This document shows, piece by piece, positions 3,217-5,596 of a DNA stretch of 45,829 nucleotides. Position numbers and translations under genes: made by a program. Position 1 is the stretch's first letter, and each line of letters begins with the position of its first letter. This DNA comes from Thermoproteota archaeon (lineage in GTDB: Archaea; Thermoproteota; Thermoprotei; Thermoproteales; Thermocladiaceae), in NCBI GenBank assembly GCA_013154355.1, contig JAADCU010000015.1, forward strand, positions 1 to 45,829. The letters are read 5' to 3'. The notes under the pieces were generated by a model. The model was not told the origin of the DNA, did no database searches, and worked only from the letters and a program-made list of their open reading frames with translations.

Positions 3217-3594
3217 ATGTCTAAACCAGACGTAGTGAAAGTAGTCATAATAGCTTGCAAGAAGATAAGAGAACAAGGACTATGTCCAGGAGATGCAAAA
3301 TGCCTCATCGCATCAATGAGAAAAGAAGGAAAGTTTGCACAGTTTGGAGATAAGGAAGTAAGAGTCATAGCTATAGTAGACTGTGGAGAATGTCCAGGAA
3401 CAAGAGTAGGAGCAGTACTAACATGGCTTAAGCCAGTACTAGACAAGCTAGGAGAGAAGCCCGACGCAGTCATGGTAGGAACATGCATCATGAGAATGTG
3501 CAAGTACAAGGACGAGATCTTAGAGAGACTGAAAAAGATCTGTCAAGTACCAGTAATAGAAGGAACACACGAGTACGCAGCACCATTCCCGTAA
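3217..3594 (+). CDS. CGGC-domain protein (putative metal-binding)
   Basis: Conserved Cys pattern CPGDAKC, DCGECPG, GTCIMRMC, typical of CGGC-domain proteins. Confidence 0.75.
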   Translation: MSKPDVVKVVIIACKKIREQGLCPGDAKCLIASMRKEGKFAQFGDKEVRVIAIVDCGECPGTRVGAVLTWLKPVLDKLGEKPDAVMVGTCIMRMCKYKDEILERLKKICQVPVIEGTHEYAAPFP

Positions 3595-3652: not shown

Positions 3653-3729
3653 TGGTAGCGGGGGGTGGATTTGAACCACCGACCTCGGGGTTATGAGCCC
3701 CGCAGGATACCTGGCTTCCCCACCCCGCT
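3653..3729 (-). tRNA. Initiator tRNA-Met(CAT), copy 1, encoded CCA
   Basis: Reverse complement AGCGGGGTGGGGAAGCCAGGTATCCTGCGGGGCTCATAACCCCGAGGTCGGTGGTTCAAATCCACCCCCCGCTACCA: full cloverleaf, A1:U72 pair and GGG/CCC anticodon stem characteristic of archaeal initiator tRNA. Confidence 0.96.
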
Positions 3730-3764
3730 TGCTTTGCAAGCTTCACCTATAGTGACTGTCCTAT

Positions 3765-3786
3765 CTTTAAAAACCATTCTCCGTGA
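3765..3786 (-). promoter_or_regulatory. tRNA-iMet copy 1 promoter (BRE/TATA-like)
   Basis: Minus strand TCACGGAGAATGGTTTTTAAAG about 36-57 nt upstream of the mature 5' end; shares TCACGGAGAA with copy 2 at the same offset. Confidence 0.6.
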
Positions 3787-3859
3787 TTATGCATGTGATA
3801 TTTTATCAATTTCTAATTAGAGATTGCTTATTAAGTTGAAACGAGGTTCCTAGCTTAAC

Positions 3860-4099
3860 ATGTCGTTAGAGTCTTCAGAATACGTCACTATTCAGGTGCG
3901 AGTTCCTAGATGGATTAAAGAAATTCTTGATAAGTATAGTATAGATATTGAGCTTATCGTTCAGAAGATTCTTGAGCATGAGATGAAGACAATAATGTTA
4001 AGAGAAATTGAGAAAGAGCTCGATAAGATACGTAACAAGCTTAACATGACTGATGAAGAGATCGTGAGACTCATACGTGAAGATAGGGATAGAATGTGA
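3860..4099 (+). CDS. vapB: VapB-type antitoxin
   Basis: Small protein YVTIQVRVPRWIKEILDKYSIDIELIVQKILEHEMK overlapping a PIN-domain ORF by 4 nt. Confidence 0.8.
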   Translation: MSLESSEYVTIQVRVPRWIKEILDKYSIDIELIVQKILEHEMKTIMLREIEKELDKIRNKLNMTDEEIVRLIREDRDRM

Positions 4100-4527
4100 C
4101 TGTGAGATACGTGTTCGATGCTTCTGCAATAATAAACTTATTGAGAAAGAACGTGCTAAGTCCATTCCTACATGGTGCAACACTTGACCTAGCACTATAC
4201 GAGACTCTTAATGCATTATGGAAGGAGTATAAGCTCTTAAAGAAAATAGATGAAGAAACTTTAAACGATTTCGTAAATATTTTATGTAAGATATTTAAAA
4301 TTCTTGAACTATATTCAATAAGAGGATTCGAGAGACAAATTCTTGATATAGCATGTAAGGAAAAGATAACGATATATGATGCAGCATATCTTGTGTTGGC
4401 GATATCTAAGAATGCTATACTTATCACAGATGATGGAGAACTCGCTAGAGTAGCTGAGAGGTATGTTAGGGTGCTCTCAAGTGAAGATTTAAGGAGGATT
4501 GTAAGTGGTAGCGGGGGGTGGATTTGA
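4096..4527 (+). CDS. vapC: VapC-type PIN-domain ribonuclease toxin
   Basis: PIN motifs intact: YVFDASAI, YETLNALW, YDAAYLVLA, ITDDGELA. The C-terminal SGSGGWI* is read from the antisense of tRNA copy 2. Confidence 0.9.
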   Translation: MTVRYVFDASAIINLLRKNVLSPFLHGATLDLALYETLNALWKEYKLLKKIDEETLNDFVNILCKIFKILELYSIRGFERQILDIACKEKITIYDAAYLVLAISKNAILITDDGELARVAERYVRVLSSEDLRRIVSGSGGWI

Positions 4528-4582
4528 ACCACCGACCTCGGGGTTATGAGCCCCGCAGGATACCTGGCTTCCCCACCCCGCT
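4506..4582 (-). tRNA. Initiator tRNA-Met(CAT), copy 2, encoded CCA
   Basis: Identical in sequence to copy 1 (78-bp perfect repeat 3653-3730 = 4506-4583). Confidence 0.96.
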
Positions 4583-4615
4583 TCTCTTACTGTTCGAGAT
4601 GTAGTTTCTGCATAG

Positions 4616-4638
4616 GTTTTATAACACTTTCTCCGTGA
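4616..4638 (-). promoter_or_regulatory. tRNA-iMet copy 2 promoter (TATA-like plus conserved upstream decamer)
   Basis: Minus strand TCACGGAGAAAGTGTTATAAAAC at an offset matching copy 1. Confidence 0.6.
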
Positions 4639-4741
4639 GCTATCTTGCTTGTTCTGTCCCTTATGGTAGCATTTTTATGCTTGTACATCAATGTTGTCTA
4701 GGAACTTTTAAATACTTCTAACAGGTAAATTATGACCGTAC

Positions 4742-5244
4742 ATGATAGATGTTTACGAGATTGTTAAGAGTTGTCTCACAAGCTCTTTTCTAAGAATGTT
4801 TAGAAACGATATAGTATCTCTAGTACTTTACGGATCGTATGCTAGACGTGAAGCAAGGCCAGACAGCGATGTTAATGTTATAGTTGTTCTAGAGAGAGTT
4901 TCTGAAGATAGATTCGAACTTCATAAGTTACTTGATAATGTTGAGAATAACTTCTGGAACTGTCTGGCTGAGTTCGGAATATATAGAAGACCTGTAATTT
5001 CTCCAGTAGTGTTAGATAGAGAAAGTGCAAGAGTCTTTCAACCATTATAGTTGATGCTATATTTGATGCAGAGATACTCTATTATAAAGATGGATTTATG
5101 AGAAACGTGTTGGAGAAGGTGCGTAAGAAGCTTGCTAAGCTTGGTGCAAGAAGAGAAAGGATAGGGAAGATATGGTATGTTAATTTAAAACCTGATTACA
5201 GATTTAGAGAAATAATCGATCTTTCTTTAGAAGATGACGAATAA
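4742..5244 (+). pseudogene. Minimal nucleotidyltransferase (MNT) antitoxin, frameshifted near 5041-5050
   Basis: ORF 4742-5050 has GSYARREARPDSDVNVIVV; the continuation IIVDAIFDAEILYYKDGFMRNVLEKVRKKLAKLGARRERIGKIWYVNLKPDYRFREIIDLSLEDDE* is in the -1 frame to 5244, overlapping the HEPN start. Confidence 0.75.
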
Positions 5245-5596
5245 TATAGAGCTAGCTTTAGCATATGTAGAGGAAACTAAGAGAAGATTAAGGACTGCGT
5301 TAAGATTGATAGGTATTGAGCCTCCTAAAGTATATGATGTAGGACCTGTACTTATGCAGAATAGAGGAAAAATTCTAAATTTCTTTAGAGAAAAGATTCC
5401 AGAACTAGTAGCAATATCAAGATGGCTTAGAAGAGAAAGAGAACCATCAATGTACGGTGATGAAGAACTTGGGATACCTCCTACGAAACTATATACTGAA
5501 CCCTATGCTAGGAAAGCTTGTGAGAGTGCTATAATGGTTTTAACAGAAGTTGATAAGTTATTTAATCACGTGTTAAGAGGCGAGGACAGGATGTAA
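5234..5596 (+). CDS. HEPN-domain protein (partner of MNT)
   Basis: RWLRREREPSMYGDEELGIPPTKLYT...AIMVLTEVDKL pattern of archaeal HEPN proteins; overlaps the MNT tail. Confidence 0.75.
   Translation: MTNNIELALAYVEETKRRLRTALRLIGIEPPKVYDVGPVLMQNRGKILNFFREKIPELVAISRWLRREREPSMYGDEELGIPPTKLYTEPYARKACESAIMVLTEVDKLFNHVLRGEDRM

Follow-up and report, generated by a model that had tools for sequence, protein, structure and literature searches.

The locus analysed here raises the question of why a toxin-antitoxin gene pair is enclosed by two identical initiator tRNA genes, and whether the toxin and the tRNA have anything to do with each other. The window (the whole 45,829-nt stretch of DNA that was analysed) belongs to G000, one of five incomplete MAGs (G000 to G004) from a genus of little-known hot-spring archaea. 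Repeat comparison within the window reveals an exact 78-bp direct repeat (3653-3730 and 4506-4583; spacing 853), which, given its length and exactness, is not due to chance. ARAGORN calls a tRNA-Met(CAU) in each copy, in agreement with the original prediction that both repeats are complete initiator tRNA-Met genes with encoded CCA. The tRNA sequence (AGCGGGGTGGGG...GCGGGGCTCATAACCCCGAG...CCCCGCTACCA; 77 nt including the CCA) has the CAU anticodon, and the A1-U72 pair, the GGGG:CCCC anticodon stem and the encoded CCA identify it as an archaeal initiator.

The two tRNA genes (Table 1) are preceded by different sequences. A TATA-like element, CACGGAGAATGGTTTTTAAA, is located ~56 to 37 nt upstream of copy a, and the 60 nt upstream of the two copies are unrelated (16/60 matching positions, not above shuffled sequences), so that a common origin of the two promoters was rejected. 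Each of these regions is nevertheless kept between G000 and its closest congener, G001, with 50/60 identical positions for copy a and 57/60 for copy b. The intergenic region between copy b and the gene for the MNT-type nucleotidyltransferase is more similar to its G001 counterpart than the neighbouring vapC and MNT coding sequences (88-90%).

The segment between the repeats consists of vapB and vapC only, and no integrase was found among its open reading frames. The product of vapB matches the NCBIfam model VapB_Sulfo (a Sulfolobales model) below the cut-off (E=5e-7, 30 bits against a cut-off of 60), and that of vapC matches the Pfam PIN family above the cut-off (E=1.3e-7). The vapB gene is directly upstream of vapC, with a 4-nt overlap. 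The catalytic residues of VapC (D8, E36, D95 and D112/D113) are present, as had been proposed from the window, and are invariant among the orthologues in the genus; the dN/dS values of both genes between G000 and G001 indicate purifying selection. Judging from its sequence, the pair is an ordinary type II VapBC toxin-antitoxin operon, with a predicted PIN toxin and a small antitoxin encoded upstream. Because each tRNA gene keeps its own upstream region and vapBC is under purifying selection, all these components look functional and maintained.

Table 1. Features of the tRNA-vapBC-tRNA locus and its neighbours (positions in the window).
Feature	Position	Strand	Evidence and comparison
CGGC-domain protein gene, left neighbour	3217..3594	+	Pfam PF08821, E=2e-21; in G002 other genes are next to it, without tRNA or vapBC
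Initiator tRNA-Met gene copy a, 77 nt including CCA	3653..3729	-	ARAGORN; same 77 nt in 5/5 genus genomes
Divergent intergenic region: TATA-like element upstream of tRNA copy a (-), vapBC start (+)	3730..3859	.	88.5% identity to G001
vapB-like antitoxin gene, 79 aa	3860..4099	+	NCBIfam NF050799; dN/dS 0.06 vs G001
vapC-like PIN ribonuclease toxin gene, 143 aa	4096..4527	+	Pfam PIN PF01850; dN/dS 0.09
Initiator tRNA-Met gene copy b, 77 nt including CCA	4506..4582	-	ARAGORN and repeat; 22-nt overlap with vapC 3' end
Upstream region of tRNA copy b (-; TATA-like TTATAAAA) and of MNT gene (+)	4583..4741	.	92% identity to G001
MNT-type nucleotidyltransferase gene, frameshift-truncated	4742..5050	+	Pfam PF01909, E=7e-7; 102 aa here vs 166-167 aa in G003/G001
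HEPN-domain gene, internal deletion	5234..5596	+	Pfam HEPN at cut-off; intact 145 aa in G003

The search of related genomes for vapBC flanked by initiator tRNA genes, which the original prediction had recommended, yielded the same layout in one congener and part of it in another. In G001 (~88% nucleotide identity), both tRNA genes and vapBC are found at the same place with the identical 853-bp spacing. In G003 (~78% nucleotide identity), copy a and vapBC are present, and the contig ends with TGG, 3 bases into the expected copy b and in the frame that yields the same VapC tail; a second G003 contig, on which the MNT/HEPN pair and L15e are encoded, approaches the copy b site from the opposite side and stops ~80 bp short of it. 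Given the same layout and spacing in G001 and the tRNA-vapBC block in G003, misassembly and a recent mobile cassette can both be ruled out; the arrangement is real and inherited. In none of the genus genomes does this vapBC occur together with an initiator tRNA gene that is clearly single, the G003 assembly being broken at the copy b site. The toxin-antitoxin-like MNT/HEPN pair adjacent to copy b is intact in G003 but broken in the window, through the MNT frameshift and the HEPN deletion, and in G001, where HEPN is short.

The remaining two genomes of the genus lack the block. The left flank of the window (SAM hydrolase and CGGC genes) continues in G002 into genes for a GHMP-type kinase and a PEP carboxylase-like protein, as does the SAM hydrolase gene in G004, whereas the right flank (L15e) continues in both genomes into MetAP, dnaG-like and DNA polymerase genes (the last of these flank names were read from translations). 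With its two flanks apart in G002 and G004, the block coincides with a break in synteny; the simple, empty single-copy site that was sought in relatives was not found, and what these two genomes provide instead are the separated flanks without the block.

The locus has a further feature, absent from the original prediction: vapC runs into tRNA copy b. The stop codon of vapC (TGA, 4525-4527) is inside the tRNA gene, and the last seven residues of VapC (SGSGGWI) and the stop are encoded by the antisense strand of copy b. In an alignment restricted to rows with the PIN motif, homologous VapCs stop at or near window residue 136 and lack the SGSGGWI tail; for instance, the Geothermarchaeum VapC end, ...TTEDLIKIG-stop, aligns with ...SSEDLRRIV of the window protein, just before the tRNA-encoded tail. 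The natural end of VapC thus seems to have been overwritten by copy b, and the simplest history would be that the tRNA landed on a pre-existing vapC end. With its end specified by a tRNA gene on the opposite strand, this vapC is a neat example of overlapping genes.

Multiple initiator tRNA genes also occur in the genus at loci unrelated to the window. G002 possesses three, perhaps four, identical initiator genes in differing upstream settings (the fourth copy is partial, at a contig end), and G004 possesses two identical genes on separate contigs; the initiator tRNA is 100% identical across all copies in the genus. No match to the window VapC was found in G002 or G004. Among the 81 genomes of the class that were compared, more than one full initiator match was detected only in this genus, in line with the expectation that multiple copies are unusual for archaea; G039 was rejected as a second multi-copy genome, its one copy being present at two overlapping contig ends. 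Outside the genus, a single initiator gene at most was detected in each of the ten genomes of the class with the best VapC homologues. Most archaeal tRNA genes are single copy, and initiator copy number was normal in 167 genomes (PMC6000648), which makes the genus-wide multiplication the unusual part of the picture and the genus a natural setting in which to ask why the dosage of the initiator would be increased and by what route short tRNA units move. The original prediction had held that both tRNA copies in relatives without vapBC would speak against it; G002 and G004 largely conform to this description, but at other loci. Taken together, the comparisons suggest that the doubling of the initiator tRNA is not tied to vapBC.

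The two G004 copies (L037 3956-4032 and L038 3590-3666) share 55 nt upstream and nothing downstream and appear to represent a recent copying of a ~130-bp promoter-plus-tRNA unit. The G002 copies (L005, L034, L035 and L103) have ~20 nt of downstream sequence, AAAACAACAAGCCTTGGACC, in common, and two of them share 13 nt upstream. In G026, a member of the same order, the initiator tRNA is split (L138 1370-1408 and 3200-3238), with the halves 1.8 kb apart; the 5' and 3' halves each have their own TATA-like box and are joined through complementary leaders (GGCGGTCGCGGCGGC and GCCGCCGCGACCGCC). This split tRNA is of an already known kind.

The explanation that best fits these observations, with a probability that we put at about three in four, is that the window contains two working, separately transcribed initiator tRNA genes and that an ordinary VapBC operon happens to sit between them. 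We infer the following order of events. In this Thermocladiaceae-like genus, the initiator tRNA gene would have multiplied to at least two identical copies, at loci that differ between species, through the copying of tRNA units of ~80-130 bp. In an ancestor shared by G000, G001 and probably G003, copy b would have arrived precisely at the 3' end of vapC. There it would have replaced the original stop, so that its antisense strand now provides the seven terminal codons together with a stop. The most likely effect of the extra tRNA copies is simply a higher initiator dosage, a possible benefit that the original prediction was right to list. VapB most likely restrains VapC, and freed VapC would be expected to cut RNA and slow translation.

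The original prediction went further, proposing that VapC cleaves the initiator tRNA and that the flanking extra gene is kept to supply or protect this target. We consider this improbable, although a link between toxin and tRNA would be important if true. Several observations are consistent with it: initiator tRNA is cleaved by VapCs of enteric, leptospiral and Haemophilus origin (PMC4105405; cited in PMC11633383); the tRNA-vapBC block has been kept over ~22% nucleotide divergence; and PIN genes are scarce in the genus, with one or two PF01850 matches per incomplete genome, the window-type VapC being the sole match in G000 and in G003 and one of the two in G001. Furthermore, the sole PF01850 match in G002, a different, solitary PIN protein (L035 2719-3276), is encoded ~0.8 kb downstream of an initiator copy. 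This proximity may be coincidental; the chance for that one gene is ~0.4% by our own estimate, for a gene chosen post hoc. It is because of the small number of PIN genes and this G002 neighbour that the link stays alive at low probability. However, G002 and G004 have multiple initiator copies without the window-type VapC. Conversely, genomes that encode VapC homologues elsewhere yielded no more than a single initiator gene each, with no tRNA close to these homologues. Both findings also speak against the idea of a mini-element having duplicated its own target. At 27 homologous loci outside the three congeners that share the block, no tRNA gene was found within flanks of up to 1.5 kb, and a VapC family that habitually adjoins tRNA genes was accordingly rejected. 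The biochemical precedents in archaea point elsewhere as well: VapC4 of S. acidocaldarius cleaved mRNA and rRNA, not tRNA-Met, and other archaeal VapCs that have been assayed cut mRNA or rRNA (PMC11633383). The nearest solved VapCs are PAE0151 and PAE2754, and the enteric VapC is absent from those matches. Cleavage of the initiator tRNA by the window VapC would be an extrapolation from bacterial enzymes only, and the comparative data do not favour a toxin-tRNA link.

A more specific variant attributes a regulatory role to the overlap. The vapBC mRNA, being antisense to the 3' end of copy b over at least 22 nt, might couple initiator tRNA transcription or abundance with toxin expression, and VapC might act on the initiator tRNA, for which the genus maintains spare genes. 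This is a long shot.

Direct repeats that flank vapBC also call to mind a mini mobile element, in which vapBC would have moved as a cassette between att-like tRNA repeats. tRNA genes commonly serve as att sites, and synteny with G002 and G004 is broken at the block. Against this, there is no integrase or transposase in the segment, which holds vapBC only; the repeat is a whole tRNA, not a 3' fragment; and the position is the same in species that are ~12-22% diverged, with no excised form seen. Two genes, each with an upstream region unrelated to the other but individually conserved, fit whole-tRNA repeats better than attL and attR do. Neither the window VapC nor the exact initiator tRNA was found in viral contigs, and viral carriage was rejected. 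Considering also that the relatives have no simple empty site, we regard the att-site interpretation as quite unlikely, and this part of the original prediction was abandoned. Duplication of one tRNA copy by the assembler, conceivable for short-read MAG assemblies, is hardly credible, given the identical layout and spacing in two independent contigs that differ at ~12% of sites and the distinct, conserved flanks of each copy.

As in archaeal type II pairs of VapB_Sulfo and PIN VapC, the window has overlapping genes for a small antitoxin and a PIN toxin with intact catalytic acids, and the nearest solved structures to its VapC are those of Pyrobaculum aerophilum PAE0151 and PAE2754 (E about 3e-11). 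The difference from typical type II VapBC is that the C-terminus and stop of the window VapC come from an overlapping antisense tRNA gene. With the enteric VapC, which reportedly cleaves initiator tRNA-fMet (a result attributed to Winther and Gerdes, 2011), it has the PIN-domain toxin in common but no close sequence relation was seen between the two, and its neighbourhood alone would suggest an initiator target. Integrative elements bounded by attL and attR likewise have direct tRNA repeats that enclose a gene cassette; the window differs from them in having no integrase and no excised site, and in that its repeats are whole tRNA genes whose two upstream regions are independent and conserved.
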